Source of the DNA: Peronospora farinosa
Lineage: Eukaryota > Oomycota > Peronosporomycetes > Peronosporales > Peronosporaceae
Assembly: GCA_947646735.1 (NCBI GenBank)
Contig: CANTFK010000054.1
Coordinates: 310,001 to 374,000, forward strand
DNA length: 64,000 nucleotides
Reading direction: 5' to 3'
The translations under genes were made by a program, and so were the position numbers. Each line of letters starts with the position of its first letter. Position 1 is the stretch's first letter. Below are positions 2,402 to 37,623 of this stretch, one piece after another. The notes under the pieces are model-generated. The model worked only from the letters and a program-made list of their open reading frames with translations. It had not been told where the DNA came from and did no database searches.

Positions 2402-2445
2402 CGGGGGACCCGGACCTCCGTTCCAATCAGTAGGGCGCCCTGCAC

Positions 2446-3493
2446 CTACTGGTCCCGACCGTTTTTTGGACGTGCGGCCGGTACAGCACCCTCATGATGG
2501 GCGTCCACTACTTGTACCGATATTGGGGCTGGCGCACGGCACTCTGCCGCGCGATGTCCTGGCTTGCGACAACGAAAGAAAACCATTTGACGCCCGTTGC
2601 GAGCGTCACCTTTTATGAAAGACACGTCGCCGGTCACCCGACGACTCAATAACGTCGATCTCCATAGGTTCTGGACCAGAAGGCCGGGGAACGGTGACGA
2701 CCGAGGGTTTGGCATATGCCTTTGTGACCCTAAAGTCTTCACGGAGTACGATGGCAAATGCCTCCTCCAATGTGGCAGGCTCGGCGCGCTCCAGCGATAA
2801 GCGGGTCTACCCCTCACGCATACCATCCACAAAGACATTCACCTGCGTGTACATGTCCATGGGGTGCGTGATAATACATGACGCCAGATGCCTAGCCATC
2901 TGTACGTAGTCGCGCATCGCCATTTTACCCTGTCGCATCGACAGGAATCTTTATAGCACCAGTTTCTCCTCTTGCGGTGGCTAGAAAGCAAGACGAAGAT
3001 CGTCCTGGATGGTATCCAAGGTGGGGAATGCGTGCTCGTCCACAACGAGCTTACCAAGGGCCCACTCCTTGGTCTTCCCGGTGAGGCGGGAAAGAAGAAA
3101 GTTGACCTTCGCCTGGGGTGCCTCAAGAAGTCTCGAGGCGATGGCGATATCAACTTCTCGGAACCACCGATTCAGCGATAACCGGTCCTTACCTTCTCCA
3201 GAGTAGGAGGAGGTTTCCATCTTCACGGCCTCATTACGTGAAGGGCGTGAGGAAGTTAAACCTCGCCGGTTGGATTCGGTGAGCTCGCGTGCCATAAACT
3301 CATGTATGGCGAGACGTTGCGCGTCAGGGGTCGCTGATCTCATCAACGACGCGACGAATGCCTCTCCCGATATCACCGCGAGGCGATTAAGGGCATCCCA
3401 CTCAACACCAGTAAGATGGGGGAAGGTCGCGTGCTCCAGAAATAAATCTGGAGCGTCAAAGTACGACGATTCGCTCATCCCAAACTCGGGCAT
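2446..3493 (-). pseudogene. Gag of element A, broken
   Basis: The ATG at 3493 opens a Gag whose first 170 residues match element B Gag through [30 protein letters not shown] and DDLRLAF. A TAG then replaces the Glu codon found in B. The same frame has further stops near 2950 (TAA) and 2813 (TAG), so capsid is interrupted three times. A zinc knuckle remnant is seen at about 2560-2600 as FFRCRKPGHRAAEC: the first Cys of the CX2CX4HX4C box is replaced by Phe. The frame shifts again before protease. Confidence 0.88.
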
Positions 3494-3501
3494 AGGAAGG
3501 A

Positions 3502-3517
3502 CTACAAAGTGCTACCA
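3502..3517 (-). other. Primer binding site of element A
   Basis: On the minus strand the 16 bases TGGTAGCACTTTGTAG follow the LTR end after a 2-base spacer (CC). Elements B and D have near-identical sites in the same place. The implied primer is a tRNA ending in AGTGCTACCA. Confidence 0.75.
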
Positions 3518-3519
3518 GG

Positions 3520-4195
3520 TGTAACGGGGCTAGAACGTACCGTCACTAGCTTACACGTGCGCTCGAGGAAGACTCAAGCCCAAGTATTAGGTATTAAGTA
3601 AATTTAACTCTGATTTTTATTTTGGTTTTAATTCGTACTAATTACGAAGATTTTAGTCGTAATAAATACGACAGTGTTCCCGCCTTTCGGGAACCACACA
3701 ATTTCAGGTTGATTTATCATTGGTCCATATTGGGACTTTAGGCCCCAATAATAAACCAATAATTTATTACCACGCTGTGCCCGCTATTCGGGCCCATCAC
3801 CTGTCTACATATGTAACGGGGCTAGAACGTACCGTCACTAGCTTACACGCGCGATCGAGGAAGACTCAAGCCCAGTAAGTAAATTTAACACTGATTTTTA
3901 TTTTGGTTTTAATTCGTACTAATTACGAAGATTTTAGTCGTAATAAATACGACAGTGTTCCCGCCTTTCGGGAACCACACAATTTCAGGTTGATTTATCA
4001 TTGGTCCATATTGGGACTTTAGGCCCCAATAATAAACCAATAATTTATTACCACGCTGTGCCCGCTATTCGGGCCCAGCACCTGCCTACATATGTAATTG
4101 TTTATTTGTGTTAATACTATATGTGTAATGTAGCCCATTACAACATATGTAATTGTTTATTTGTGTTAACTATGTGTGTAATGTAGCCCATTACA
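3520..4195 (-). repeat. LTR of element A with internal tandem duplications
   Basis: The LTR begins TGTAACGGGG and ends CCATTACA on the plus strand, so it has TG...CA ends. It contains two tandem copies of a roughly 285-bp unit (3520-3811 and 3812-4093), differing by a few substitutions and an 11-base indel near 3590, then two copies of a 53-55-bp unit (4088-4142 and 4143-4195). It keeps the same hairpin order as the B LTR with different bases, for example a GTTCCC/GGGAAC stem. Alternatively this is a solo LTR abutting a second LTR. Confidence 0.8.
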
Positions 4196-21240: not shown

Positions 21241-22017
21241 CAGCTTTGATGGAGAGGGATAATAGCAGTTTCCTGAAGGATTGGAAACTTCTAAACTTGG
21301 CTAGGGTGATGTGGTCCCGACGAGGCAAATTGACGAAGTTATTTATTGTCTTAGAATAGCGTCACCTCGAAAGTGAAATTTGTTAAAATAATACTTTGAG
21401 GACACACGTAAAATGAGACTATATGCGCTTACACATTAAGAGAGACTGTACACGTCTATATTTCTTAGCATCCAATCAAGCTGGTATTCCATTTCGAAGT
21501 AATCTCCTTGCATAGACACCAATTCAAAGTTTGACAACACTGCTTATCGATTTTTGTGTGTTCGCCTACAATAAACATGCTAGAATCTATCCTTTTCAAA
21601 AAGGTCGGCAAGGTTTTGAAGTTAGAGTGTAACACCCCTGTTACAGGTAAATTGCGACCTCACCTGATCGGCTAATGGTGTGACAAATTGGCAAAAGGGA
21701 CAAGGCGACAAGATCACCACGTCGACCATCATATGGTGATAGACGGACGCTATAGGAATTTAGACGTGGTATAAATTATAGTGCTGTTTTAGATGCATGG
21801 TGTAGAGTTGACATAAAAGATTAACACCATATATGTTAGTTTCTTTTTTTTACTTTGCAACATGTGCAACTACTCACCAACTTTGTACAAATTGCATAAC
21901 TATCCTGCTGTGATTAATGTTTTAAATTGCGGCTCTTTCCAGGGATGGATATATAAGATGCGGAAGCGATGCAAGGCTGTTCATTAAAATATCCATGACG
22001 ATAAAAGCTGTAACGGA
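21241..22017. other. AT-rich intergenic stretch left of element D
   Basis: No ORF, RNA gene or element terminus is seen before the GTTAC target duplication. Confidence 0.5.
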
Positions 22018-22022
22018 GTTAC
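22018..22022. repeat. Target-site duplication, left copy (element D)
   Basis: GTTAC, matched by 37624-37628. Confidence 0.85.
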
Positions 22023-22481
22023 TGTAATGGGGCAACCTCCGACTATACTGATTACAGTATAGTCTACTTTCACTGATTACAGTGAAAGCAGGTGCCTCAA
22101 TTACCTCTCTTACACAAGAGGCAGAGTAAGCTTTACTTCTAAACAAACGCTTAGAAGTAGAGGAAAAGAAAACTGTATTTAATATAGTTAACTATCTAAT
22201 AAAACTAATCTGTTATAACCTATGTTAACTATATTAAACTACAACTATGTATGTCGACAACTTGCCCTCCACTCATTGCGCGTGTCCATCGGTCATTGGT
22301 CAGCGCGTTGGTTGATATGATGGCCCATATCAACCAATAAGAGGGCATCTCCAACTTCAAGAAGATCTAGGGACAATATTATAAGAAAAGATAATATTGT
22401 CAAATATTATTAGTTATAATAATATTTTTATTGACACTTCATATAAGTGTCAATATTATGTAACGGGCTCACCCCGTTACA
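22023..22481 (-). repeat. Element D 3' LTR
   Basis: 459 bp, TG...CA. It is packed with hairpins: 10 bp at 22041/22055 and 9 bp at 22067/22080, both with an ATTA loop, 12 bp at 22308/22326 and 11 bp at 22372/22391. It ends in the inverted pair GTAACGGG/CCCGTTAC. Confidence 0.93.
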
Positions 22482-22496
22482 TCACCCCCCCTCAAC
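22482..22496 (-). other. Polypurine tract of element D
   Basis: On the minus strand GGTTGAGGGGGGGTGA directly precedes the LTR start TGTAACGGGG, as expected of the plus-strand primer. Confidence 0.75.
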
Positions 22497-22527
22497 CAAC
22501 AGTCACATTAGTGACTATTTAGTGACT

Positions 22528-24420
22528 ATGGGAAAGGAGAACTTGTTGAATTTTCTTTCATTCAACAATTACGCTATGACAAAGTCAATGCGCGTCGCTG
22601 CTAAGGCAGCCGAGAGCTCGGCTGCACGCCTGTGTGCAGCCGCTACTGAGGCTTCACAGCCTCAGCCAGCAGACACTAATGTGTCTGCTGGAAGTCAACA
22701 TCAGCCTGCAACGCCTGTTGCAGGTTCACGTAGCGCTTCGCCACGTGAAGATGTTGACCCAGAGTTAGTCGTTGACTACTCTGGTGAGTCGGATCACGCA
22801 TCCGGTTCAAAGTCACCTGTTCCACTCCCGGGCTCTCCCCGGGGTGATACCTCGTCGTCTAATGCTACGAAGAGGGATCGTGGTACATTGAGTGAATCAA
22901 TGTACCGTGAAATTTTCGGGTCGTCTGATGAATCAGATGACTCGCCAAACGAGTCGAAGGATAGTGACTCGGGTGGGGACCGTAAGGGTGATGTCAGTGC
23001 TTCTACTGGCATCAATGCTCATAGTGTCGGTACTTCTGTTGACACTAATGCTCGTGGTGTCGGTACTTCTGTTGACACCACGCAGGAGGCTTTAGACCGC
23101 AACGTATTGCGTCTTGCTCCTGATCGCAAGCCATGGATGCTACCTAAGCATCTGCTTGATCGTTGGTCTGGAAAGACCAACGAACGGTTCCCCATACCGT
23201 TGTTTGATGCGTCAAAGCTTCATGGCCTTGACGCCAGTGCGAAGAACTTTCGCACTGAGAACGATTATTACATCGATGTGTTCCTTGAACATCGATGGTA
23301 TGGCCCACACAAGAAGCGTGAGGCCGACGCGTTCCTCCAATCTTGGAACGCGTTTATCACCAACGTTTTAAACGTTGGAAAAGAGGCTTGGTTTCAAAGA
23401 CTTTATGATAGCCGCAATAAATTTGAGAAACGAAGTACGTCCGGTGTATGCTATCGTTTGCACCGGTTATCTAGAGAGGCAGGCCTGTTATGCCTCTCTT
23501 GGGGCGACCCATGCCCGGGGTGCCTGAGCACCTCGTCAAGAGCGCCTAAGGAGGCGTACCTCCTTACTGAGCCCTGGTGGAGGGCTCGCATCTCTTCTGA
23601 GATGCGTGAAGGGATTGCTACTTTGCAATCCCTTTACGAACGCGCTGGGCGCTCGTTTTCCGATGGTCCTTCACCATCGGGTGTCCCTTGTCGTACTGTT
23701 CGACAAGGCCGGGAACGTCGGCCATCAGTTGGGCCCGAGGTTCCCAGCTATCCGCCGAAGGCGGATAGCCACGCCACCGGACGAGATAACTCGTCCGACG
23801 TCCCTTCACCTCGCGGTGATTTAGTAAGCGTTCCACAAGAAAGCGCTTCCCACCATAAGAGTCCACCAGCGGATGCGGTGGTGGAGGGAAAACCCTGTCC
23901 GATTCTTTCATTGGACTTGGCTGCTGAGTTAGACGGGTTTGCCCGTGTAACTCGTGAGCTCCGTTGTGATGTTGATCACGAACGGGATAAGCGTCGCCGC
24001 TTAGAGGACATTGTGCGACAGCTTGGGTTTGACCATGAGAGGTCTCGTGCAAACGATGCTGTCGCAGTATTGGAGAATGAACGGCGAGTTCATTCTCTGA
24101 GTAACGAGCTCGCGACAGCTCGTCAGGAGATCGTCCAATATCATGGGACGATCTCATCTCTACACGACCAGATATCGAATCTGGTTCGTGACAACAAGAA
24201 TCTGAAGGGGATTCTTGAGAATAACGGCTATCTTCGTCGTTCGAAGAAGCCGCGTACTGAACGTACGGACGAAGACGTCCCACGTAAAAGGTATGATGCG
24301 TACGCATCCTGTGTGGCAACTCGGTCGTGTATGCGTTGCCTAGGCGGCGTAATACACGAAACGGGCCGATGTACTTGGGCAACAATTTATTGCTGCCCAC
24401 GTGAATCACTACATGTTTAG
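22528..24420 (+). CDS. Antisense accessory ORF of element D, coiled-coil protein
   Basis: This frame is open for 630 residues from the ATG at 22528 (GTGACTATGG context), 46 bp after the LTR, on the strand opposite to gag-pol. A GTG start inside the LTR would also be in frame but is less likely. Residues about 1-190 are acidic, Ser/Asp-rich and disordered, with a repeated GVGTSVDTN unit. Residues about 198-372 look folded and aromatic-rich (WMLPKHLLDRW, YYIDVFLEHRWYGPHKKREAD, AFLQSWNAFI). Residues about 462-565 form a strong coiled coil (ELATARQEIV, ISNLVRDNKNL). The first 1.09 kb has no opposing ORF, and the rest overlaps the pol C-terminus. The last 50 residues lie opposite the conserved integrase tail and may only be a shadow. 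I recognise no family; function is unknown. Confidence 0.62.
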   Translation: MGKENLLNFLSFNNYAMTKSMRVAAKAAESSAARLCAAATEASQPQPADTNVSAGSQHQPATPVAGSRSASPREDVDPELVVDYSGESDHASGSKSPVPLPGSPRGDTSSSNATKRDRGTLSESMYREIFGSSDESDDSPNESKDSDSGGDRKGDVSASTGINAHSVGTSVDTNARGVGTSVDTTQEALDRNVLRLAPDRKPWMLPKHLLDRWSGKTNERFPIPLFDASKLHGLDASAKNFRTENDYYIDVFLEHRWYGPHKKREADAFLQSWNAFITNVLNVGKEAWFQRLYDSRNKFEKRSTSGVCYRLHRLSREAGLLCLSWGDPCPGCLSTSSRAPKEAYLLTEPWWRARISSEMREGIATLQSLYERAGRSFSDGPSPSGVPCRTVRQGRERRPSVGPEVPSYPPKADSHATGRDNSSDVPSPRGDLVSVPQESASHHKSPPADAVVEGKPCPILSLDLAAELDGFARVTRELRCDVDHERDKRRRLEDIVRQLGFDHERSRANDAVAVLENERRVHSLSNELATARQEIVQYHGTISSLHDQISNLVRDNKNLKGILENNGYLRRSKKPRTERTDEDVPRKRYDAYASCVATRSCMRCLGGVIHETGRCTWATIYCCPRESLHV

Positions 24421-24970
24421 GTAGGTTTACTGTTGACAATAAAACTAAATCACCTTCAATAAATGTTTGAGCATTTGCCCTTCCATTATTGTCTGCGTTT
24501 CGCTTTTGCTTATCCACCGCTTCTGCGATGGAGTCTTGCACGAAACGGACTACCGCTTCACGAGTCAGCAGGAAATCCTTAGCTGACTCGTTGCTTTTGG
24601 CTGCAGTGTATTGTGAATGCACTGCAGAGATATCGGTTAGTAATTCAGCGAGAACATTACTGTTCTCACTTGTGATACCTCGAACGATGCTGATATCTTC
24701 AGCATCGTTATCAGAAAGAGCGTCATCGCTCTTACTTTCTTCCTCTTCACCGAAGTCGAATGGTACGACTTCGGTTACTTTCGCGTCGACCATAACGTCG
24801 TCGCGTGATGAGCAAGATCCAGATTGGTTCTCGCTCGAGCGAGTCTCCCCCCCTATATAAAAGTCACCCTCTACTAAGGTGGGGACACGTGGATGGCGAA
24901 GGCCATTCACGTAGAACGGTGTATGCGTCGTGGAAGCATGCACGGAGTTGTTGATGGCGAATTCGACCAT
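23618..24970 (-). CDS. Element D pol C-terminus: integrase end, tether and chromodomain
   Basis: A 450-residue open frame begins in the integrase core (MVEFAINNSVHASTTHTPFYVNG). It continues with a variable acidic stretch, then the tether block LLPKYIGPFRVLRRLGNAYTTEL and THHTFYVGRLRPYV. After a polar linker comes a chromodomain (FLVERLLNHREVKGRRTSYLVRW, then GYPPSADSWEP). The chromodomain, which in chromoviruses steers integration to modified chromatin, appears intact with its aromatic residues. The polar linker is exactly where the antisense frame encodes its coiled coil. Confidence 0.92.
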   Translation of the reverse strand: MVEFAINNSVHASTTHTPFYVNGLRHPRVPTLVEGDFYIGGETRSSENQSGSCSSRDDVMVDAKVTEVVPFDFGEEEESKSDDALSDNDAEDISIVRGITSENSNVLAELLTDISAVHSQYTAAKSNESAKDFLLTREAVVRFVQDSIAEAVDKQKRNADNNGRANAQTFIEGDLVLLSTVNLPKHVVIHVGSNKLLPKYIGPFRVLRRLGNAYTTELPHRMRTHHTFYVGRLRPYVQYAASSNDEDSRYSQESPSDSCCHEPDSISGRVEMRSSHDIGRSPDELSRARYSENELAVHSPILRQHRLHETSHGQTQAVAQCPLSGDAYPVRDQHHNGAHELHGQTRLTQQPSPMKESDRVFPPPPHPLVDSYGGKRFLVERLLNHREVKGRRTSYLVRWRGYPPSADSWEPRAQLMADVPGLVEQYDKGHPMVKDHRKTSAQRVRKGIAK

Positions 24971-25012
24971 CGACGAGAACTCACTCCAACTCGTAAACGA
25001 GTGGACGTATTC

Positions 25013-25342
25013 TCAGAGAGATTCTTCAAGGACGCGATTGGCGCGTTCAGTCTTACCATCGGTTTCTGGATGGTCAGAAGTAGACATTGTGAGCCGTGTT
25101 CCAAGTGTTTGGAACACGGAGCGCCAAAACTCAGCCGTGAACCGGGGGTCCCTATCGGACACAAGTTCACGGGGTAAATCGTGCAATCGAAAGATTGTAT
25201 CGATAAATACTCGAGCACAGCCCTCTGCTGTGATCGACTCAGGTACAGCAACAAGATGTACCATCTTGCTGAACCTGTCTACAAACACGAGAATACCATT
25301 ATTTTCGTGAGCGTCTTTGGGAAATCCAAAGACGTAGTCCAT
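25013..25342 (-). pseudogene. Element D integrase catalytic core
   Basis: MDYVFGFPKDAHENNGILVFVDRF supplies the first Asp block, LVSDRDPRFTAEFW the second, and HPETDGKTERANRVLEESL the Glu, so the D,D-E triad is present. The ORF is separated from the HHCC domain (25475-25765) by a stop and from the C-terminal ORF by a stop at 25013. Confidence 0.9.
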
Positions 25343-25474
25343 TGATACGGACTCTCAGCACTCTTCCGGAACAGGTAGAGGCTGCAATGGTGCACGGAGT
25401 GAAGGAATAGGCTTCACTTGTTGACACACCTCGCAATCACGCACGTACTTGCGCACAAACTTATACTGGCGTGG

Positions 25475-25765
25475 TCAGTAAAACTCACGACTGACCGTGA
25501 AGTAAGTCTTCTCACGGCCACGATGCCCACTTATTGGTGCATCGTGACATTCAAACATGATCCGTAACCTGAGATCATGTTGTGGCGGTACAACGACACG
25601 AGGCGTGTCGTTGTTGACGTCTGTGTAATACAGCAAGCCGTTCCGCTGGGTGTATCGATCGAGAGAAGATCGATACATGGCAGGCAAGCACCTTTTAGCT
25701 TGCGTGGATGGGTCCTTGAGGTACTCCATCAGGCGTATAAGATCATAATTTTGTGCGCATGCCAT
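25475..25765 (-). pseudogene. Element D integrase N-terminal zinc domain
   Basis: ECHDAPISGHRGREKTYFTVSREFY supplies the two His of the HHCC box. The paired Cys (RDCEVCQQVKP) lie downstream after a stop. Upstream in the element the frame is interrupted by element B, inserted at 25818/33248. Confidence 0.88.
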
Positions 25766-25813
25766 TTAATGTCGTCGAGTAAAATCGACGACAAGACGCT
25801 GGTACTCAGCGTG

Positions 25814-25818
25814 GCGAC
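25814..25818. repeat. Target-site duplication, left copy (element B)
   Basis: GCGAC, matched by 33248-33252. Confidence 0.88.
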
Positions 25819-26138
25819 TGTAATGGAGCAACCTTTTACATAAGTAGTTATAGGATTAATACATAATTACATAAGTAGGCATAGGGCAGTATCCGATTAG
25901 TGGATACTGCGCGTCATTTTATTATTGGTTTATTATTGGGGTGCCAGACCCAATAATTAGCCAATAATAAATTGACTTCCATATTGAGTGGTTCCCATGA
26001 GCTAGGGAACATATCCGCACTTACTGCGAATTAAAACTAAAACAAAAATAAAAACAGAGTTATATTTACGAGTTAATTAAGAGCGCTTCCTCAACGCCCT
26101 TTTAGTGTAAGACGGTAACGGGTCCTTAGCCCGTTACA
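25819..26138 (+). repeat. Element B 5' LTR
   Basis: 320 bp, TGTAATGG...CCCGTTACA. It holds hairpins including ATTATTGG/CCAATAAT, GTTCCC/GGGAAC and the terminal GTAACGGG...CCCGTTAC. Confidence 0.95.
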
Positions 26139-26140
26139 CC

Positions 26141-26156
26141 TGGTAGCACTTCGTAG
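26141..26156 (+). other. Primer binding site of element B
   Basis: TGGTAGCACTTCGTAG, two bases after the LTR. It matches the sites of elements A and D in position and sequence. Confidence 0.78.
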
Positions 26157-26164
26157 TCCTTCCA

Positions 26165-27268
26165 ATGACCAAATTTGAGATGAACATGGGCGAGTCTTCG
26201 GTGGCTCCAGCGGTCTCGCTGGAGCATTCTGATTTTCCACATCTCACCTTGGTGGAGTGGCAGGCACTAAATCGCCTCGCGGCGGTGTCTGGTGAAACTA
26301 TTGTGACGTCACTGCTGAGCACAGCGACGCCTGATGATCAGCGTGCCGCCATCCAAGACTTTATGGTGCGCGAGCTCGCCGAAGCGAATCGGCGAGTATT
26401 GACTCCCTCGCGCACTTCGCACCATGATGCTATCAAGATGGAGACTTCAACGTACTCCGGTGATGGTCCGGATAGTCTCCCCCTCAATCGCTGGTTTCGC
26501 GAGGTGGATATTGCAATAGCGTCAAGATTAATTGACGCTCCGACGGCCAAGATCAATTTCCTGTTGTCTCGCCTTGCCGGCAAAGCCAAGGAATGGGATC
26601 TCGGAAAGCTCGTCGTAGATGAGTTGGCGTTTCCTACGCTGGACGATATCCAGCGTGACTTACGACTGGCTTTCGAGCCTCCTCAAGATGAATCTCGCTT
26701 GCGTGCAGATTTCTTCTCACTCCGACAGGGCAAGCTGTCGATGCGTGACTACGTGCAGAAGACACGTCATCTTGCTTCGTGCATTACCACGCAGCCAATT
26801 GACATGGCTTCACAAGTCCATGTCTTTATCTTTGGTATGCAGGAGGGCATGACGCGTTACTTCCTCACACGTGCTGAGCCAAAGTCCCTCGAGGAGGCAT
26901 TTGCCCTCGCGCTTCGTGAGGACTACACTGTCGCGTCGTCGTACCTGCACGCAGCGTCACAACATTCCCGGACGTCTGGCCCAGAGCCAATGGAAATTGA
27001 TGCAATCGAGTCCTCTCGTGGTCGCGGCAAATCATTAAGCCGCGACATTCGCAATCCTAACACGATGAAGTGTTTCCGCTGTGGTAAGATAGGCCATCGT
27101 GAGGCTGTCTGTCGTGCACCTGCGCCGGTGACTATGAACACAGCTGTCTCCAAGGAGACGCTGTGTCGTCGGTGGTACCGCAAAAAAACGAGCGGTTCCA
27201 GTAGGCGTGGGGCGCCCTACTGGCAGAAATGGAGCCCCGAGTACTCAGGTGGCAGCTCGGGTTCCTAG
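26165..27268 (+). CDS. Gag of element B
   Basis: 367 residues from the ATG at 26165, nine bases after the PBS. It is open throughout, unlike the Gag of A and D. Capsid-type sequence ([50 protein letters not shown]) is followed by an acidic hinge ([12 protein letters not shown]) and a complete CX2CX4HX4C zinc knuckle, [14 protein letters not shown], at about residues 300-316. It would form the nucleoprotein core that packages the element RNA. Protease follows in the +1 frame with an overlap of about 60 bp. Confidence 0.93.
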
Positions 27269-27596
27269 CCCCAAAGTAATTCATACTCACTTCAATGCCA
27301 CCACCATGCGAGATGATTCGAGACTGATTATTATCAGTCTCATCGTCGCTGGAATGAAGCGACCACTTCGAGCGTTGTTGGATTCTGGCGCTTCCAACAA
27401 CTTCTTTCGTGCATCCTGTTTGTCCCTTCTCCCGTCGACTGTCACGGTTCGAGAAGGTCCAGGTGACATCGTTGTCAAACTTGCCGATGGACAACCAAAA
27501 CGTGTCCCGCGTAAAACAGTGGTTTTACCGTACACTTTCGACGGTTTCCAGAGCAACGACGAATTTTTGGTGTACGAGATGAACTATGCATTTTAA
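27207..27596 (+). pseudogene. Protease of element B, truncated by a frameshift
   Basis: The frame shows ALLDSGASNNFFRASCLSLL (catalytic DSG), IVVKLADGQPKRV and [14 protein letters not shown]. It stops right after MNYAF. The adjacent frame continues with the expected CILRIPWLSRYQPKID block. Element A has one base fewer at this point, so a single T insertion near 27590 is likely. Confidence 0.9.
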
Positions 27597-27679
27597 TTGC
27601 ATACTCAGGATACCGTGGCTGTCACGGTATCAGCCGAAGATAGATTGTCTATCTCGGCCCGTCAAAGGACAAGGCTGAT

Positions 27680-29002
27680 ATGACATCAGTGAGAGTTTAC
27701 TCATTAGTTGGGCGCGTCATCCATTGGCCTCACGTCAGGGTCGTGAACGAACTCGCCACGACTAGTAGTCAACACAGAGAGAGCGATGACCCTCTGAGCG
27801 CGGTATGTTCCGTTACACCGATAAAGCCACAGAACGAGGCGGTCGAACAGCGGTTCCCGCATACACAGACATCGGTCGAACAGGGGTTCCCGATTCACAA
27901 CGAGGCGGTCGGACAGCGGTTCCCGCATACACAGACATCGGTCGAACAGGGGTTCCCGATTCACAACGAGGCGGCTGAACAGCGGTTCCCGCACACACAG
28001 ACATCGGTCGAACAGGGGTTCCCGATTCTCAACGAGGCGGTCGAGCAGGGGCTCCCGCATACAAGCACATCGGACGAGCAGAGGCTCCCGATAAATTTCG
28101 AGGCGGTTGAGCAGGGGCTCCCGCATACAAGCACATCGGACGAGCAGAGGGTCCCGATCATTTTCGAGGCGGTCGAGCAGGGGCTCCCGCGTACAAGTAC
28201 ATCGGACGAGCAGAGACTCCCGATAAATATCGAGGCGGTCGAGCAGGGGCTCTCGCAAACAAGTGACGCGGTCGAAGACGAGCTCCCGCTTTTGATTGAC
28301 GAGACTGGGCGGACTACGGATCTCCATGAGACCGACGTGGTGGAGACAGAGCTCCCACGTCTAGAGGGGGGGGGTACATCATCCTCTTGTGATAGCGACG
28401 TGCCTGTCTCGAGCAGGGGCTCGAGACGCAAGAGAAAACGCAAGAAAGGAGCACGCCGATCACCGAGACGACGAAATTCACGTCAAGATGCTGATGCATT
28501 TGATTCCGTAGTGACGGAATCCGTATGCGCGCTTGAATATGTGGAGGGATCCCCACATCGTGGCCGCTACATTGAGGTAGCGAGCCCATCGTGCACTGCT
28601 GCAGAGATCACATCTCTGCCAGGCCTTTCATGCAAAGATTTCCTTCATGATCTCAAGGCCGGCGACATCGAGCAAGTGTGCATCGTTTCAGCCACCGAAG
28701 CAGCCAGTGAAGAAGTTCTGGAGGCTCGCCCGAAGAGCGCCGAGCCTAAATCAGCGCGCGAAGAACGCTTCGCGGCACAGTCTTGGGATGCTCTTCGTGC
28801 TTCGGGCAACCCTGTATACGATATCGCCCGTGAATACGCCGATACTTTCCCGGAGAAAATTCCTGCTGAGCTTCCGGCGGATCGTGGTGTGCGGCACGAG
28901 ATAGATCTCGTGCCAGGATCGAAATATTGCGTGACACGGCAGTGGCCGTTACCGCGCGACCAAGTCATCGCTATTGATGAATTTTTCGAGGGTCTCCGTT
29001 AG
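27680..29002 (+). pseudogene. Repeat linker and RT start of element B pol
   Basis: Residues about 50-200 are a run of roughly 14 repeats of 11 residues, alternating EAVEQRFPHTQ and TSVEQGFPIHN-type units (about 27835-28290). A basic stretch (RRKRKRKKGARR) follows, then the pre-RT region found also in A ([40 protein letters not shown]). The frame ends at a TAG (29000-29002) replacing the Lys codon seen in A, just before the RT fingers. Alternating repeats of this kind are not a standard Ty3 domain. Confidence 0.88.
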
Positions 29003-29782
29003 GCTGGCCATGTCCGCGAGAGTATCTCGCCACATTCGATTCCGACTTTCTGTGTGAAGAAAGCCACCGGCGGTTGGCGCATTGTGCACGCCTTCAACAA
29101 GCTGAATGACGCCACGATCCCGGCTCAAACGCCTATCCCTCGAAAAGACATGATATTAAATACCATGTCCGGGAGCGAGATCTACAGCGCCATAGATCTG
29201 ACAGACGGTTTCTATCAGATCCTCATGAGGGACAGTGACATTCCGTTCACTGCGGTCATCACCCCAAGCGGGATGCTTTGGGAGTGGCTAGTCATGCCAC
29301 AAGGCCTTAAGAATGTTCCAGCTACGTTCAATCGGATGGTGACACAATTACTTCGCCCACTTCGCGACTTTGCGCCGAGCTACTTTGACGACATTTTTGT
29401 TCACAGCCGCGCTGAGCAAAAGCTCAGCGTTACGGAGGTACACCTTCGACACTTGAAGCAGGTGTTTCAAGGTATGCGCGAGAATAAATTGTATGCGAAT
29501 CTGAAGAAATGTGTCTTCTGCGCTCCCGAGATTCCAGTACTCGGTTGCTACGTCAGCAAGGAAGGTGTCCGCGCTGATCCTGAGAAGATCTCATCGATCT
29601 GTTCCTGGCCAACGCCCAGGAACCAAACTGAATTACGTCAATGGCTCGGTCTGGCGAATTACTTGCATAAGTATACGAAGAACTATTCTGAGCTAATTCA
29701 GCCATTATTAACTTTGCTCAAGAAAGAAGCAGTATGGTTATGGACGGCAGAACATCAATCTGCCTTTGACTCCGTAAAATAG
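29003..29782 (+). pseudogene. Reverse transcriptase of element B
   Basis: It is open from the TAG at 29000 to a TAG at 29780. It has all RT blocks: [56 protein letters not shown], and the active site [11 protein letters not shown], then the thumb and connection ([18 protein letters not shown]). The catalytic residues are intact. The second stop falls where element D has a Gln codon. Confidence 0.92.
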
Positions 29783-30519
29783 AGCTTGTCCGAGGCACCG
29801 GTGCTGATGTTACCTGATGACTCTAAGCCATTCCACGTCGTATGTGACGCGAGCAATTTCGCTATAGGATGTGCCCTCTGCAATTTGATGACGAGGGTCG
29901 AGAGCGCGTCGTGAGTTTTCAATCACTACAGATGAAACCTGCCAAGAAAAATTATCCGGTACACGACAAGGAACTTTTGGCTATGCGTTACGCGCTAATC
30001 AAGTTTAGAGTATATTTGCTCGGCGAAAAGATGTTTTCTATCTACACAGATAACGCATCATTGCGTACCGCCGTCAAGAGTCCTCACTTGTCCCAGCGTA
30101 TGGCTCGGTGGTTGTCATTTTTTTCCGAGTACAATTTTGTGGTGCATTACAATCCTGGCAAGAATAACATTCTCGCCGATGCGCTTTCTCGTCGTCCTGA
30201 TTACGATCCTCGGCGTGATATGGGTCATCAAACGGAGTATGTTGATGACGACGAAGATATCTGTGTGTGTTGTATTGAACTGGGACTTAATTCGGTGATT
30301 TCGACCCCCGTGCTTTCGATCCGAACTCAGATCGCTGAATCCTACGCGAATGATTCCTTCTATGCAGGAATCATCAACTATCTCAGGGACCCGAGCGAAA
30401 AATTACTCGCGAAGTTGACGAAACCAACACGCGACAACATCAAGCGTTACGCGCTTGACGGTCCGCTGCTGACGTACACGATGGACGTCTTTGATTCCCC
30501 GTGTCGTCATCCCTGCTGA
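29783..30519 (+). pseudogene. RNase H of element B
   Basis: FHVVCDASNFAIGCAL (first Asp) is followed by a frameshift near 29870. The new frame (29869-30519) carries HDKELLAMRYALIKF (Glu), SIYTDNASLRTAVKSP (Asp), and the NPGKNNILADALSRRPDY block. It ends in the start of the integrase region (NYLRDPSEK) with another frame change near 30500. Confidence 0.9.
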
Positions 30520-31195
30520 TGACGACCTTCGAGCTTGATTGGTTCATGAATTTCACGACAGCCCAGCTGGCGGACAGCTGGGTCGCGAGAAGACGTTTGC
30601 AGCTATTTCTCGCGTATTCTTCTGGCCGCGAATGTATAAATACATCCAGAAATGGGTGCGCTCCTGTGAAACCTGTCAGCGTGTGAAGCCTGCGCCGTCT
30701 TCACAAGCCCTATTGCGTTCGCTTCCGATTGCTATGGAAGCCTGGCGCTCGGTCAGCATGGATTTTATCTTTGGCCTTCCACCGGATGAACAGAAACGCA
30801 CGGGCGTATTGGTTCTAGTGGATCGATTCAGCAAAATGGTGCATGTTGCTCCGGTCTCCGCCAACATTACGGCGGAGACGACAGCGAAGATCTTCATTGA
30901 TCTTATCTTTAGGCATCACGGCTTGCCAGAATCTATTGTTTCGGACCGTGACCCGCGTTTCACTTCGGCTTTCTGGGCCGAATCATTCCAGCTATTAGGC
31001 ACGCGGTTGCTTATGTCTACGGCGGCCCATCCAGAGACGGATGGGCAAACGGAGCGTGTCAACAGAGTGCTCGAAGATGTCTTGCGCAGTTATGCAACAT
31101 CGTTCTCGTCATGGAATTTGTTTCCTCTAATTGCAGAGTTTGCAGTCAACAATGCGGTCCATGCGTCAACCGGGTTGACGCCCTTTTTTCGTTAA
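30520..31195 (+). pseudogene. Integrase of element B
   Basis: HEFHDSPAGGQLGREKTFAAISRVFFWP and CETCQRVKP form the HHCC zinc domain. SVSMDFIFGLP, IVSDRDPRFTSAFW and ETDGQTERVNRVLEDVL give the D,D-E core. It runs into a TAA at 31193 after STGLTPFFR; the matching block in element D continues FYVNG, so a one-base change is likely. Confidence 0.91.
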
Positions 31196-32440
31196 CAACG
31201 CAAGGTATCCTCGCCTTCCGGCGCTTCTTGCTCTCTCAGCTTCAGAACACCCTGTTTCCAAGCTTGGTGGGGGAGTATCTACGGATGGAATTGCGCCGAA
31301 ACTATTGATGATTGATTACGATGCGCATAAGGTTGCTGCCGATGCACCTAATACTGGTAATTTTGTGAACAACGGCATATCTACTCCTGACGCGATGCTT
31401 TCCATCGCGTCTTCCGTTGCCAATTTTGCTCCAAAGGAGAATACGTCGCCTGTAAGTTCGGCTGCAGTAACCGAATTCCTACTATTACGACAAGGAATCA
31501 CGCGTTTTGTGCGTGATGCATTACAAGAGTCAGTCGACAAGCAAAAGGAAAATGCTGACAGAAGAGGACGAAAGAATATGTTGATATTCGAGAAGGTGAA
31601 AGAGTATTGTTATCAACAAGTGGATTACCGAACACCTCAGTGACGAATTTGGGCGCTAATAAGTTAGCGCCAAGATATATTGGCCCATTTCGGGTTGTTA
31701 AGGTGCATGGTGACGCTTACACGCTAGACATACCTACATCTATGCGTTTGCACCCGACGTTCTACGTCGGGCGCCTCAAGGCTTACCTGCCGGCGGATCT
31801 CCCTTCGAATCTTCCCCGCTCTTCTGTGCCGGCTCGAAATCCGACATCTCTTGACGACGACGTTGACGACGACTGGGACCAAGTCCTGCCCGAACGCGTG
31901 CAGACTCGACCTGCTGGGGTCCTCCGAACGCAGTCGTCTCAAGCTGACGTAGGCGCTTAACTAGTACCAGCTGCTCACGTCGAGTCCGCTCAGCAGCTTC
32001 AGTCGCAGCATCCGCACGATCTTGAGCTCTCTTAGCCATCTCGCGAGCATCAAGTAGGGCATTCTTCGACTCCTCGACTTCAGCGCGGAGTAGGCGCAGC
32101 TCATCATTCGACTGTACAGGCGCCCGATTACGAGAATCGGCGCTCATCGCCAGAGGTCTTTCGTCGTGATGCTCCTCCTCCCTTAGTTGATGCATCGGGT
32201 GCGCGACGCTGGATTGTCGACCGAATTGTCGACTACGAGGATCACAAGCCCCAGACGCCGAGTAATAACTCGGCGCCCATGAAGAAGCGTGTCGAGAAAC
32301 ATTACAGGGTTCGCTAGTTGGAATATTCCCCGGCGGACGATACATGGGAGCCATCGAGTACGCTGTTCCAAGATGTATTAGACGTGGTCGAGGATTATGA
32401 GTCGCGTAGGAAGACGGCTATAGCGAGTGATGCTGCCGAT
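31196..32440 (+). pseudogene. Tether and chromodomain of element B pol
   Basis: After an acidic variable region (31305-31643), the tether block LAPRYIGPFRVVKVHGDAYTLDI and HPTFYVGRLKAYLP follows in another frame (31607-31960). Then comes a linker and a chromodomain (RRWIVDRIVDYEDH, then EKHYRVR, then LEYSPADDTWEP). A TAG at about 32315 sits where chromodomains have the conserved Trp, so this domain would be cut in half. Confidence 0.85.
31776..32354 (-). CDS. Antisense coiled-coil ORF of element B
   Basis: A 192-codon frame from the ATG at 32354 runs against gag-pol. Residues about 75-150 are a clear coiled coil (ELRLLRAEVEESKNALLDA, DAATEAAERTRREQLVLVK). It is followed by a basic tail. The coiled coil lies opposite the linker between tether and chromodomain, the same place as in element D. 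It lacks the long N-terminal region seen in D. Either it is a reduced version of the same accessory gene or both arise from how that linker is built. Function unknown. Confidence 0.45.
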   Translation of the reverse strand: MAPMYRPPGNIPTSEPCNVSRHASSWAPSYYSASGACDPRSRQFGRQSSVAHPMHQLREEEHHDERPLAMSADSRNRAPVQSNDELRLLRAEVEESKNALLDAREMAKRAQDRADAATEAAERTRREQLVLVKRLRQLETTAFGGPQQVESARVRAGLGPSRRQRRRQEMSDFEPAQKSGEDSKGDPPAGKP

Positions 32441-32579
32441 TCCATCCCCAATCTCGCGAGCCGTGATGCTCGCGAGCAACAGAACTTTGACGACGAGTCC
32501 CCGAGCGATTCCGAGATCTATTATGAGGCTCGAGAAAACTTGGATGGCATTTGCGACTATGTGGGTTGCCATAGCGAAT

Positions 32580-32658
32580 CGAATATGGCGCACGTGGGGA
32601 TCGAACCAGCGACATCACGATCAATAACTCAGTGGTTAACCACTGCACCAACGGAATG
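32580..32658 (-). mobile_element. tRNA-sized retroposed insert in element B
   Basis: A 79-bp block is flanked by ATAGCGAAT at 32571-32579 and 32659-32667. On the minus strand it has a Pol III A-box-like TGGTGCAGTGG (32640-32650) and a B box GGTTCGATCCC (32597-32607) at tRNA spacing. The acceptor stem does not pair well, so it is a degraded tRNA or a tRNA-head SINE, not a working tRNA gene. Confidence 0.6.
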
Positions 32659-32913
32659 ATAGCGAATGAAGAGTTTCTTCGTAGCGCTGATATAACGGTA
32701 TAGCGTCCACGGGATCAAGTGTGCGTCCGTGACTCGCGGTGTCTGCTCCCTGCAGATCTTACGATTGTTGTCGTCAGATATATCCTTGCGCGCGCGGCCA
32801 GGGTCATGCTGCTCAGTTGCGTGTCACTGAGCAGGTTCGAGGTTGTGTCGCTGCATCTTTGGTGATAAGAATCATTTTTAAGTTATGTGCTTACGTTGTA
32901 GTAAGCACAACTT

Positions 32914-32924
32914 AAAGAGGGGGG
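32914..32924 (+). other. Polypurine tract of element B
   Basis: AAAGAGGGGGG, three bases before the 3' LTR. Confidence 0.85.
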
Positions 32925-32927
32925 TGA

Positions 32928-33247
32928 TGTAATGGGGCAACCTTTTACATAAGTAGTTATAGGATTAATACATAATTACATAAGTAGGCATAGGGCAGTA
33001 TCCGATTAGTGGATACTGCGCGTCATTTTATTATTGGTTTATTATTGGGGTGCCAGACCCAATAATTAGCCAATAATAAATTGACTTCCATATTGAGTGG
33101 TTCCCATGAGCTAGGGAACATATTCGCACTTACTGCGAATTAAAACTAAAACAAAAATAAAAACAGAGTTATATTTACGAGTTAATTAAGAGCGTTTCCT
33201 CAACGCCCTTTTAGTGTAAGACGGTAACGGGTCCTTAGCCCGTTACA
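32928..33247 (+). repeat. Element B 3' LTR
   Basis: 320 bp, identical to the 5' LTR except for three transitions (positions equivalent to 25827, about 26007 and about 26089). Confidence 0.95.
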
Positions 33248-33252
33248 GCGAC
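33248..33252. repeat. Target-site duplication, right copy (element B)
   Basis: GCGAC, matched by 25814-25818. The original target was the base of a hairpin in element D. Confidence 0.88.
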
Positions 33253-33342
33253 AGTGGTGCTCACATCACTGTCGAAATTTTACAGTCGGCTCTAGATCAG
33301 GCCGACATGAAAGAGCATCGGCGAAGACGTTAAGTCGTCCCG

Positions 33343-33882
33343 TTACTCCACGGAGAAGTTGTACTCCGCGAAGAACGACAACCATCTCGCCATTCGTTGC
33401 GAGAGGTGTGGACTATTTACAGCTGTGCGTAGTGACGCATGGTCTGTATATACAATGAACGGTCTATCGCCTAAGAGATAGACGCGAGACTTAGCCAGTT
33501 CATACTTCATGGCAAGGAGTTCCTTTTCATGCACCGGGTAATTCCGCTCAGCCGGTTGCAGCTGACGCGATTGATAACAGACGACACGCTCGACGCCGTC
33601 TGTATCATATTGCATCAGTGCACAGCCGATTGCAAAATCACTGGCGTCACAGACCACATGAAATGGTCTGTCTTGATCGGCAATCGCCAATACTGGCGAT
33701 TGCATCAAGCTTTGCTTGATACGTTCAAAGGAACGCTGACAGTCAGCGTTCCAATTCCACTTTACATTTTTCTTTAGTAAACCATAAAGATGTACTGTCA
33801 TTTCGGCGTAGTTGCGCGAATACTTGTGCAAGTACGCCGCTAGCCCAAGGAACTTCCTTAGTCTCTTGACATCGAATGGCAC
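33343..33882 (-). pseudogene. RNase H of element D
   Basis: LGLAAYLHKYSRNYAEM (connection) is followed by FHVVCDASDFAIGCALM (Asp), HEKELLAMKYELAKS (Glu) and IVYTDHASLRTAVNSP (Asp), and it ends at SFFAEYNFSVE with a stop. The catalytic residues are intact. The next downstream part was displaced to 25.8 kb by element B. Confidence 0.92.
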
Positions 33883-33971
33883 TGGCCAGTCGGTGATCGC
33901 CTTGATCTTTTCTGGATCAGGGCGTACGCCGTTCTTTCCGACGATGCTGGTATTTCGCTAGCTGCGAATAT

Positions 33972-34196
33972 TCACTTCTTAAAGTTGGCGTACAACTTAT
34001 GCTCGCGCATAAGTGTAAGAATCTTACGGACGTGGAGTCTATGGACTTCCACGTCTGTTTTCCCGTCCATAGCCCGACTATGGACGAACACATCATCGAA
34101 GTAACTCGGTGCGAATTCGCGCACCGGTCTCAATACATGTGAGACGCATCTATTGAATGTGGCTGGTGCATTACTAAGCTCTTGCGGCATCACCAA
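33972..34196 (-). pseudogene. RT palm of element D
   Basis: [16 protein letters not shown] and SYFDDVFVHSR (the catalytic YFDD box) lie in a frame of their own, with the thumb block REHKLYANFKK. MPQELS replaces the usual MPQGLK. Confidence 0.9.
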
Positions 34197-34225
34197 CCAT
34201 TCCTAGAGTATACCACTGGGAGTGC

Positions 34226-35800
34226 TCACTGCTGTGTACGGGATGTCCCGTCACGCATTAGGATCTGATAGAAATCATCCATCAGATCCATGGACGAAAA
34301 GATGGTACTCTTAGACATACCATCTATGATTACGTCCTTTCTCGGTATCGGCGTTTGCGCCGGTATCGTTGCAGCGTTCAACTTGTTGAACGCGTGTACT
34401 ACCGGCCACCCTCCTGTGGCCTTGCGCACACAGAAGGTCGGAGAGCTGTGAGGTGAAGTTGACTCCCTCAGAAGGCCCGCTGCTAGTCGATCGGCAAAGA
34501 ACTTGTCGATCGCCTCGACCTGTTCCCGAGGCAGTGGCCACTGCTTCATGACACAATAGTTTGTGCCAGGAATAAGGTCGATCTCGTGTCGAATACCTTT
34601 ATCCTTAGGCAACTCGCACGGAACGGATTCAGGGAATACATCCTTGAAGTCGACCAAATCCTTGTACAAAGGATTTGACTTCAGCGACTCCCAGGATTGC
34701 GATGTATATCGCTCAATCCGAGTCTTCTCATCAAGGACACTGTCGTCCATTGATGAGCTACTGAGAACCCGTTCGTTCTCGACAAAAACTGTTGCTGACC
34801 GAATGTCAGTCATGTACTCTTCCTCTGTGACGAGCACACAGATCTGCTTGACTTTGCCACTACGCAGATCACGCAAGAACCTTTTAGGTTCTAGCGTAGG
34901 CAACTGAGTTATCTCCGAAGTTAGCTTCGGAGGTGCGATCAGATCAAGCGTATAAGTGCCTACGTTTGATCCGTCATTAACCAAGACGTTCAAAGTCTCG
35001 GTTACTTCCTGGGCACTTATTCCCTCAGGGCACTGGGGACTTATTCCCTCGGTGATTATCTCCTGGGGACTTATTCCCGCAGGCTCGATGGATATTGTTC
35101 CATCGACTTCCTCTAGCTGTGGTGGCGCAACCACAGCAAGATCCTCTACGATCAACTCTACAATTGATCTAGGATTACCTTGTTGCCGCTTCTGGGCAAC
35201 CGGTGTACTCTTCGGTGAATGCTGCCCTCTAGGCGACCATTCATGTCCCGGTCCACTCGACTTATTTGTGTAATGGACCTTCGGCGCTGCCTGTACTTGT
35301 GCACAGACGACAACAGCTTGCTCCACAGCGTGACTGTTTGTCACGCTGAGTTCTTGTGCAGTCGTGCTAACGACCGAATCACAAGTGAGGCCATCACACT
35401 CACTCGTAGTATATTCACACGCTTTTGAACGCTCCAATACGTTTATCAGATGGACATCTGATGAACAAGCGGCAGGCATCTTCACGGTTCGATGCTGCCA
35501 GCTGACCCATGGCTCATACCTTCTGAGCCATGGTAATCCTAGGATGACATCAAATTTGTCATCCAGGTCAAGTACGATGAAATCATCATCGTACTTTTTG
35601 CCTTCAAGCGTGTAGTGAATTCCCACTACACGTATCTTTACTGTTACGGATGCGCCAGTTGCGAGGCGCACCGTCATCCTCGTTGGAGAGGTCTCGCGCT
35701 CAACATATTTGAGCCTACGACCATCTAGCGATTGGCGTCAGACAAAGTTGTTCGAAGCCCCACAATCAACTAGGGCGAATAGTGACATGTTCTTTGTCAC
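34226..35800 (-). pseudogene. Protease, linker and RT start of element D pol
   Basis: Upstream of the ATG at 35677 the same frame encodes the active site LVDCGASNNFV (Cys in place of Ser/Thr of DSG/DTG). A TGA follows, and then MTVRLATGASVTVKIRVVG and DVILGLPWLRRYEPWVSW. A long linker includes a short repeat of EGISPQ/EGISAQ (about 34995-35090). Then come EIDLIPGTNYCV, PLPREQVEAID and the RT blocks [20 protein letters not shown] and IFSSMDLMDDFYQILM, ending at a frameshift near 34240. Protease to RT is one frame here, unlike in A. Confidence 0.9.
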
Positions 35801-35933
35801 TTCGATTTTCAAGGTGATGAGGGATACCTCATCACTGGGAGCGGCAGCACACAGTGACTGTGTGTTAGAGCAACCCTCGTCAAGACTCCCGCCAACTCTC
35901 TTGACGTTGCTGGATCAGTAGGACGCTCCGCCC

Positions 35934-36122
35934 CTACTGAACCCGACCGTTTATTGATGGTCCACCACGTTGTTGCGATTTCGCAGCAACGTGAGACCCA
36001 CGTCTCTGGCCCTTCTTGGCAGACGATCGGTCGTCACTCCCAGTGTTACGAGACACTGGGCGTGGGGCACTACACTCATAAGCGTAGTGGCCCAACTTCT
36101 GACAGCGATTGCACTTTTGCAA
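35934..36122 (-). pseudogene. Gag zinc knuckle of element D
   Basis: CNRCQKLGHYAYEC is a full CX2CX4HX4C knuckle. It lies in the same frame as capsid but after a TGA at about 36147. Protease follows in the +1 frame, the same arrangement as in element B. Confidence 0.85.
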
Positions 36123-36146
36123 TCGCTTGTAGCCTGGAGAGCGAGG

Positions 36147-37151
36147 TCACTCGCTCTCTACATAGGATAGATCCATTGGTTCTGGACCTCCGCCCTCCTG
36201 TCGTCTCGGTGGACGATAGGACCCCGAGTGGACATGAGCCTGTTGTAGGCTGAAGTCCTTCTGTTTCGCTGCAGAGATCGCTTGATCCAGCGATTCTAGT
36301 TCCAAGCGGAACAGGTGGGTCTTAACAGGACCATCTGTCAGACCCTTGATGAACACAGTAACTTGCGTGTGTTCATCGATTGGGTTCAGTACGATACAGC
36401 TAACGAGGTATCGTACGTGTTGGGCGTAAGCGTGTATATCACGCTTACCCTGATTCAAATCCAGGAGCTCAGCCCGAGCCCTGAATTCAGCGCGAGGCGG
36501 TTCAAACGTGTGTTTGAGCCGCTCCTTGAAGACGTCATACGTTGGGAAAACGTATGGGTCATGCAGTTTGAGCCCTAAGGCCCAAGTTTTGGCACGTCCT
36601 GCCACGTTCGACATGGCGAACTTGACCTTCATCGCATCGTAATCGATGCGACAAGCCTCAATGGCATCATCGAGTTCGACGAACCATCTTAACAAGGAGT
36701 CGCTTTCCACTGCCTTGTACTTGGAGACATCAATCTTCAAGGACTCGGGTCGACGTGTATACGTCGACCCGGCAGCAACAGCACTAGCCTGCTGTTGTCT
36801 CAACAGTTCAGACTGTTAAGAACACTGCTGCATCAACAAGTCAGCTTGTTGAGCGCCTTGTTCTCTCAACAGGTCAACCTGTTGAAAACCTTGCTCCGGT
36901 AGCAAGGTGAATTTCTTTACAACTTCGTTAAGTTCATGTTGTATGAACTTGGCGATGGTTGCATGTTGGTCGTCTCCGCTAAGAGAGAGCAACATGGCAC
37001 CAACGGCAGGGTTGCCGATGGTTTCAGCCATACGCTGAACCGCATTCCATTCGAGGTCACTCAAATGGCGGAAATCATCACGCAACGCGTGATGACGTTC
37101 ATCACCCGCTGATTCCATAGCGGATGGTGCGGTGGTCGCTGAACGGACCAC
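36147..37151 (-). pseudogene. Gag of element D
   Basis: The frame opens at 37151 and is cut by a stop near 36813. Before the stop is a Gln/Leu-rich run with LLREQGAQQADLLMQQ repeats. After it comes capsid (LKIDVSKYKAVESDSLLRWFVELDDAI, AKTWALGLKLHDPYVFPTYDVFKERL, LLDLNQGKRDIHAYAQHVRYL) and the GPEPMDLS hinge also present in B. It is clearly related to, but diverged from, the Gag of A and B. Confidence 0.88.
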
Positions 37152-37163
37152 GAAGTGCTACCA
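37148..37163 (-). other. Primer binding site of element D
   Basis: On the minus strand TGGTAGCACTTCGTGG, two bases after the LTR. Confidence 0.78.
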
Positions 37164-37165
37164 GG

Positions 37166-37623
37166 TATAATGGGGCAACCTTCGACTATACTGATTACAG
37201 TATAGTCTACTTTCACTGATTACAGTGAAAGCAGGTGCCTCAATTACCTCTCTTACACAAGAGCAGAGGAAGCTTTACTTCTAAACAAACGCTTAGAAGT
37301 AGAGGAAAAGAAAACTGTATTTAATATAGTTAACTATCTAATAAAACTAATCTGTTATAGCCTATGTTAACTATATTAAACTACAACTATGTATGTCGAC
37401 AACTTGCCCTCCACTCATTGCGCGTGTCCATCGGTCATTGGTCAGCGCGTTGGTTGATATGATGGCCCATATCAACCAATGAGAGGGCATCTCCAACTTC
37501 AAGAAGATCTAGGGACAATATTATAAGAAAAGATAATATTGTCAAATATTATTAGTTATAATAATATTTTTATTGACACTTCATATAAGTGTCAATATAA
37601 TGTAACGGGCTCACCCCGTTACA
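37166..37623 (-). repeat. Element D 5' LTR
   Basis: 458 bp. It carries TA instead of TG at its plus-strand start, so the LTR edge next to the PBS is mutated. Otherwise it differs from the 3' LTR by five substitutions and one indel. Confidence 0.93.

Follow-up and report, generated by a model that had tools for sequence, protein, structure and literature searches.

The window analysed here, 64,000 nucleotides of the Peronospora farinosa genome (contig CANTFK010000054.1, positions 310,001 to 374,000), carries a chromodomain Ty3/gypsy retrotransposon, D, that is packed with short perfect hairpins throughout its long terminal repeats (LTRs) and coding sequence. A second Ty3/gypsy element, E, which is inserted in D, as well as the families A and, weakly, F show the same trait. 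These observations led to a reading on which we are evenly divided: that replicating chromodomain Ty3/gypsy families have been selected for many short perfect Watson-Crick hairpins, which would aid the evasion of silencing. Its components differ in strength. Judged from sequence comparisons, selection for structure is very probable, while evasion of small-RNA silencing as the benefit of the hairpins is put forward only tentatively. The elements concerned lie in the window as follows.

22023..37623, minus strand: D, chromodomain Ty3/gypsy retrotransposon, split by E; Pfam matches to Chromo, SH3_Tf2-1, RT_RNaseH and RVP_2 on minus-strand frames
25819..33247, plus strand: E, Ty3/gypsy element inserted in D, with target duplication GCGAC
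1..4195, minus strand: A fragment at the left window edge; 22 stems of at least 7 bp in 1-4100, 5.37 per kb versus 0.50 shuffled
63220..64000, plus strand: E-like fragment at the right window edge, 88% to E; 3 stems of at least 7 bp in 781 bp

Hairpins were mainly counted as maximal perfect stems of at least 8 bp with loops of 3-15 nt and compared with dinucleotide shuffles, D being taken as 22023-25818 plus 33248-37623 with the E insertion in between. The window itself, one random 8-kb host stretch and one 3-kb copia stretch served as background, and the genome comprises 46.85 Mb in 274 contigs; its protein matches suggest an oomycete, probably close to Peronospora. By this measure D exceeds its shuffles about 60-fold, with 44 stems versus 0.75 in the 3' part (3,794 bp) and 47 versus 0.6 in the 5' part (4,376 bp), and E (7,429 bp) holds 36 stems versus 1.55. 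The corresponding counts are 3 versus 2.0 at 48-58 kb, where the SNF2 gene lies, 3 versus 0.95 at 12-21.5 kb and 2 versus about 1.65 in the random host stretch (9 versus about 5.3 for stems of at least 7 bp), while an integrase-bearing element at 56-62.5 kb remains at or under chance. In 2-kb bins, non-overlapping stems number 28 and 16 across 22-26 kb and 20 and 23 across 34-38 kb, versus 0.28-0.38 after shuffling; the profile forms a plateau over 22-38 kb and shows 0-2 stems per bin across 38-62 kb. Chance is ruled out as the cause by the shuffle counts of whole stretches and 2-kb bins, and codon or dinucleotide bias by dinucleotide shuffles, synonymous-codon shuffles and the folding scores given below. 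Between 21500 and 38000, no known RNA family reached its gathering threshold.

These counts bear out a preliminary description of this DNA, which had reported a stem density in D beyond chance. All 16 arm pairs listed there are perfect, two of them being 1 bp longer than given, and a 23-bp near-palindrome in the RNase H region indeed leaves its centre base alone unpaired. The host SNF2 gene (49597-53517, assigned by Pfam) had rightly been set apart from D, as it contains a single stem of at least 7 bp (0.26 per kb versus 0.40 shuffled). For a long interspersed nuclear element (LINE), likewise described as unlike D, the distinction holds less completely: the reverse-transcriptase stretch at 10-15 kb, which is taken as part of this LINE, lies far under D but has a small excess (6 stems of at least 7 bp, 1.20 per kb versus 0.37). 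Its fold z is -0.14/-0.47 (sense/antisense).

Within D, the following hairpins and repeats illustrate the pattern.

22023..22481, minus strand: D 3' LTR; 8 stems of at least 8 bp, 36% of bases in stems
37166..37623, minus strand: D 5' LTR; 8 stems of at least 8 bp
22308..22337, unstranded: longest D hairpin, 12-bp stem and 6-nt loop, inside the LTR
23747..23769, unstranded: example of a coding-sequence hairpin, 10-bp stem and 3-nt loop
33730..33752, unstranded: 11-bp arms flanking one centre base, D RNase H region

Stems thus occur in LTRs and coding sequence alike, as first described, but unevenly: their density per kb is 17.5 in the LTRs, 13.2 in the part covered only by an antisense reading frame (see below), 11.4 in the gag region and 7.2-8.8 in pol. 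This peak outside pol was counted in favour of selection. The saturation originally ascribed to D was confirmed, yet it is a family property that D shares with E, A, the fragment at 63.2-64 kb and, weakly, F. Across 30 loci each, stems of at least 8 bp amount to 6.0-12.7 per kb in D and 1.9-4.0 per kb in E, while F has 1.78 stems of at least 7 bp per kb versus 0.36 shuffled. A young copia element has 3 such stems in 3 kb (1.00 per kb versus 0.49; fold z -0.08/-0.36), and with this one copy sampled, a hairpin enrichment in the copia family is not clear. In the genome, stem density therefore follows the order D > E and A > F > young copia element.

The hairpins are confined to a narrow range of sizes. 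A and E mostly have stems of 7-9 bp, D mostly of 8-12 bp. Loops mostly measure 3-6 nt, the commonest sizes being 4-5 nt in both D and E and 3-5 nt in A. All 36 stems of E are 8-9 bp long, none being longer with loops of at least 3 nt; the upper length is 9 bp in the window copy of E and in A copy L069 (loops of at least 3 nt) and 12 bp in the window copy of D. Among stems of at least 7 bp from 30 loci per family, flanks included, 26 of 599 exceed 9 bp in the E set and 5 of 1796 exceed 12 bp in the D set. The excess is strong only as long as loops do not exceed about 12 nt; at loop lengths of 21-60 nt, it is about twofold in D and E. Median gaps between hairpins are 36 nt in D, 147 nt in E and 205 nt in A. 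Loop bases show no skew by strand, although loops are richer in A+T. Decay from longer palindromes is unlikely, because pairing past the outer stem ends is near chance (in D, the first two offsets tested give 28 and 26 of 84, those farther away about a quarter) and less diverged copies are richer in stems. Nor is there a clear sign that stability rather than length is held constant, the correlation of length with G+C being -0.27 in D, 0.11 in E and 0.20 in A.

Several sequence tests argue for selection. In the coding sequence of A, structure exceeds what protein and codon constraint impose, as determined by synonymous-codon shuffling of its two frames; the intact frame of 1835 aa contains 12, 12 and 6 stems of 7, 8 and 9 bp, respectively, versus 2.3, 0.77 and 0.3 after shuffling. 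For 30 copies each of D and E, shared and private changes were compared between stem sites and other sites. Changes present in at least three copies are depleted in stems, both in D (21 of 1051 stem sites versus 127 of 3299 others, p 0.003, odds ratio 0.51) and in E (3 of 262 versus 145 of 3357, p 0.009, odds ratio 0.26). Private changes, which are taken to be mostly post-insertion, are equally frequent at both kinds of sites (D, 259 of 1051 versus 815 of 3299; E, 65 of 262 versus 756 of 3357), and stem density drops as copy divergence rises (rho -0.79 in D, -0.50 in E). Hence, it seems that stems are maintained during replication of the element and decay neutrally after insertion. This test replaced the stem substitution rate relative to the window copy, which was set aside since its larger ratio mostly reflects ascertainment bias. 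None of 146 stem bases differs in a second copy of A, which is 97.8% identical over 2,920 bases, although about 3 differences would be expected.

The comparison of E with A, which are 63% identical over 7,258 aligned bases, adds evidence from greater divergence. When both bases of an E stem pair have changed in A, the pair is still Watson-Crick in 32 of 51 cases versus 2442 of 6693 in the background (p 2e-4); in the reverse direction the figures are 25 of 47 versus 2361 of 6551 (p 0.02). Of the 43 E stems aligned in A, a tally that counts LTR stems in both LTRs, a strict rule counts 11 as common to both families, and 17 have lost at most one pair. Three hairpins of E exemplify this compensation.

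28406..28427, unstranded: E hairpin retained in A, where three of its pairs show compensatory change
31652..31671, unstranded: E hairpin retained in A, where two of its pairs show compensatory change
32886..32909, unstranded: E hairpin retained in A, where four of its pairs show compensatory change

Compensated stems could also arise by mutation alone, and the preliminary description had named quasi-palindrome correction or template switching as a possible cause. Here, the reverse transcriptase would fold back and copy one arm from the other, so that hairpins accumulate without selection. Such an origin would account for Watson-Crick stems that lack a G-U preference and mostly end abruptly, for loop sizes that suit fold-back and for the displayed E-A conserved stems, which with few exceptions changed by whole Watson-Crick pairs. 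However, frequent unbiased arm correction would, from the non-stem rate, give about 50 double changes in D and about 16 in E, whereas those present in at least two of the 30 copies number 0 in 526 D pairs and 1 in 131 E pairs. Changes moreover fall on both arms: for the 23 E-specific stems, the mean absolute value of n1-n2 is 1.26 versus 2.01 (sd 0.33) by chance, and for the 24 A-specific ones 1.62 versus 1.94 (sd 0.30). Fold-back copying does not predict the sharp upper stem length of A and E, and the young copia element also reverse-transcribes, yet its stems reach only about twice chance. A purely mutational origin is thus disfavoured and regarded as highly improbable.

A number of points weigh against selection of hairpins throughout these families. 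Enrichment in the gypsy family F is only weak, and small excesses extend beyond the gypsy elements, as in the reverse-transcriptase stretch at 10-15 kb mentioned above and in the random host stretch, where stems of exactly 7 bp number 7 versus 3.6. For changes present in exactly two copies, the depletion in stems is less clear (D, 49 of 1051 versus 187 of 3299; E, 18 of 262 versus 257 of 3357), and for changes in at least two copies p is 0.004 in D but 0.06 in E. By the strict rule, 32 of the 43 E stems are not kept in A, so that stem positions turn over. Furthermore, defining stem pairs from copies with perfect stems introduces some bias toward conservation, and every selection test rests on one genome.

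If structure is selected, the question arises which strand is its target. Folding energies, a check proposed in the preliminary description, lie well under sequence-order controls along D, A and E: fold z per 150 nt (sense/antisense) is -4.21/-4.34 and -4.66/-4.87 for D, -1.63/-1.54 for A and -1.40/-1.83 for E, versus 0.05 to -0.37 for three control stretches. Antisense folding equals sense folding in D and A and is stronger in E (by 0.42 +/- 0.13) and F (by 0.44 +/- 0.15). An obvious rival is that the sense RNA alone is selected, its genomic fold serving packaging, dimerisation, stability or translation control. Sense folding is strong, as this would require, and the primer-binding site (PBS) and polypurine tract (PPT) of both D and E are essentially clear of stems, except for one edge base. 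Likewise, GNRA sequences make up 6 of 46 four-base loops in the sense but 1 of 46 in the antisense orientation (about 1.4 each expected with even base use), and D stem changes in at least three copies comprise 8 G-U and 5 A-C (17 and 18 in two copies). Together, the GNRA surplus and these shared changes favour sense RNA at most mildly. Selection on sense RNA predicts more G-U than A-C, yet one-mismatch stems of D, E, A and F comprise 10 G-U and 20 A-C in sense orientation, or 41 and 66 (p 0.02) when flanking pairs are considered, and single changes from E to A within stems are balanced at 25 each. As both strands fold about equally and G-U is not clearly favoured, selection on sense RNA alone is doubtful, and we consider it unlikely. 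Of the second cause suggested in the preliminary description, selection for a heavily folded genomic RNA, selection for folding is supported, and its restriction to the sense RNA is doubtful; selection is read as not confined to this strand.

Rough strand symmetry and Watson-Crick pairing would also fit hairpins in DNA. In this case, hairpins that form in the minus-strand cDNA, or wherever transcription opens the DNA, would protect single-stranded DNA from damage or aid strand transfer. No direct evidence contradicts this. Private mutation, however, is the same in stems and elsewhere, so that no protection is visible in chromosomal DNA, and a DNA-level role seems rather improbable, if less so than fold-back copying.

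A plausible candidate for the benefit of hairpins on both strands is the evasion of small-RNA silencing, which is tentatively considered the likeliest one because of the strand symmetry, a conserved antisense gene in D and the Argonautes of the host, where four Piwi-domain matches were found. Conceivably, the hairpins maintain the folding of single-stranded intermediates, be they sense RNA, antisense RNA and/or minus-strand cDNA, and would thereby slow sense-antisense annealing and hide the targets of guides. With at most about 12 bp, the stems would themselves be too short to serve as Dicer substrates. The antisense gene is the following.

22447..24420, plus strand: conserved antisense open reading frame (ORF) of D with a length of 657 aa; the product has helices within 234-344 and a long coiled coil at 486-592 (107 residues)

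By its homologues, the encoded protein is assigned to a conserved downy-mildew protein family. At least 96 homologues were found, among them one of Peronospora effusa (79% over 81%), and the matches listed include numerous P. matthiolae proteins with lengths of about 529 aa; one P. matthiolae cluster has 524 members. At least 603 codons of the ORF are open in 9 of 30 D loci, the window copy counted. In the antisense-only part, changes in multiple copies fall on codon positions 1, 2 and 3 in numbers of 42, 28 and 49 (private changes 85, 98 and 101), a weak sign of coding. The protein has no Pfam match over the cut-off, and its fold model, a low-confidence one with a mean predicted local distance difference test (pLDDT) score of 56, gave no match to a fold in the PDB at E 0.001. 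No antisense gene in an oomycete chromodomain retrotransposon appeared among the matches listed from the open-access literature. Further antisense frames occur near the 3' ends of A (L069:772-1875, plus strand) and E (window 31779-32417, minus strand); these are weakly alike (27%), and that of A has a sub-threshold alanine-zipper match and no resemblance to the D frame.

If the conserved gene of D is expressed, both RNA strands would exist. A further, rather doubtful possibility is therefore that both have been selected to fold into hairpins short enough to evade Dicer, allowing expression of the two strands without duplex formation despite the Argonautes. Hairpin density would then be a counter-silencing trait that varies by family in the order D > E and A > F > copia.

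Selected genome-wide structure is already known from RNA viruses, for which PMC3950689 reports weaker innate responses to structured transcripts. The elements studied here resemble viruses with genome-scale ordered RNA structure (GORS) in that structure is pervasive beyond composition, with folding energies well under sequence-order controls along D, A and E; there, it is tied to weaker recognition by host defence. GORS-type structure, however, belongs to positive-strand RNA virus genomes rather than LTR retrotransposons, and the present hairpins are short, discrete, perfectly Watson-Crick paired and of narrow length, with both strands about equally foldable. Among LTR retrotransposons, maize Sireviruses offer a comparison: according to PMC10760457, the LTR cis-region of these copia elements bears clusters of palindromic motifs with a surplus of mapped small RNAs. 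Both cases thus combine hairpin-capable palindromes in an LTR retrotransposon with a small-RNA context. They differ in that the Sirevirus clusters reside in the LTR cis-region, whereas the stems of the gypsy elements extend through LTRs and coding sequence; the listed D stems also differ in sequence from each other, no motif search having been made. Among the matches listed from the open-access literature, no paper, as judged by its title and the beginning of its abstract, describes selected genome-wide structure that runs across coding sequence in a cellular LTR retrotransposon.

With regard to element architecture, Chronos is likewise an oomycete Ty3/gypsy element with a chromodomain following the integrase (PMC5348765, in part), and the main text of that paper does not contain the words hairpin, antisense or inverted. 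It is marked by an additional RNase H of archaeal type next to the gypsy one (same source). A, F and D copy L041 gave no Pfam RNase H match between RNase H and integrase, where intervals of 104-129 aa leave room for a diverged domain. In plant Retand elements, a conserved ORF in antisense orientation lies between pol and the 3' LTR (PMC11963269, in part), a position matching that in D; the TRP28 domain, however, was not found in the D antisense protein by Pfam, and the main text of the Retand paper lacks the word hairpin.

If selection for hairpins is real, it would add a constraint on retrotransposon evolution, and the stem content would provide a gauge of copy youth from sequence, since stems decay after insertion. 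It would also become testable whether transposons dodge RNA silencing through folding, for which many copies in one genome, together with less structured copia controls, offer a natural test bed.

The chromodomain families share their basic organisation. Protease, reverse transcriptase, RNase H, integrase and chromodomain follow in gypsy order, complete in one frame in A and F; RNase H, integrase, a Tf2-1-like SH3 domain and the chromodomain are common to A, F and D copy L041. This D copy spans RNase H to chromodomain in gypsy order, the protease side of D having been matched separately. E matches gag, reverse transcriptase, RNase H and integrase and is provisionally grouped with the chromodomain gypsy elements. 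DNA of relatives in other species was not found in scans of viral contigs and genome contigs. Tandem repeats with units of 33 or 66 bp are present in E (27767-28294) and A (1326-1787), and F has a repeat block at L070:1156-1732. The copia family, with open frames of 1360 aa and identical top scores at G000:C18:77600, C23:110862, C48:60442 and C265:248413, has apparently been recently active. The remaining features of D and E are as follows.

22482..22493, minus strand: D PPT, as which we take this stretch; the minus strand reads GAGGGGGGGTGA, with no listed stem except for the edge base
37150..37163, minus strand: putative tRNA primer-binding site of D, TGGTAGCACTTCGT, with no listed stem
23618..24970, minus strand: D pol C-terminal frame, 450 aa, with Tf2-1-like SH3 and chromodomain (Pfam)
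33343..33882, minus strand: D RNase H (PF17917, PF17919)
34226..35677, minus strand: D protease-side pol frame, 483 aa (PF08284)
25819..26138, plus strand: E 5' LTR
32928..33247, plus strand: E 3' LTR, 99.1% identical to the 5' LTR

The LTR pair of D is 98.7% identical, and its target duplication GTTAC lies at 22018-22022 and 37624-37628. The left flank of D at 22009-22022 reads TGTAACGGAGTTAC, which resembles gypsy LTR ends, and D may thus have inserted beside or into the LTR end of another element. Elsewhere in the genome (G000:C25:95785-111688), three D LTRs follow each other on one strand at intervals of about 7.7 kb, and two D bodies may thus share the middle LTR.

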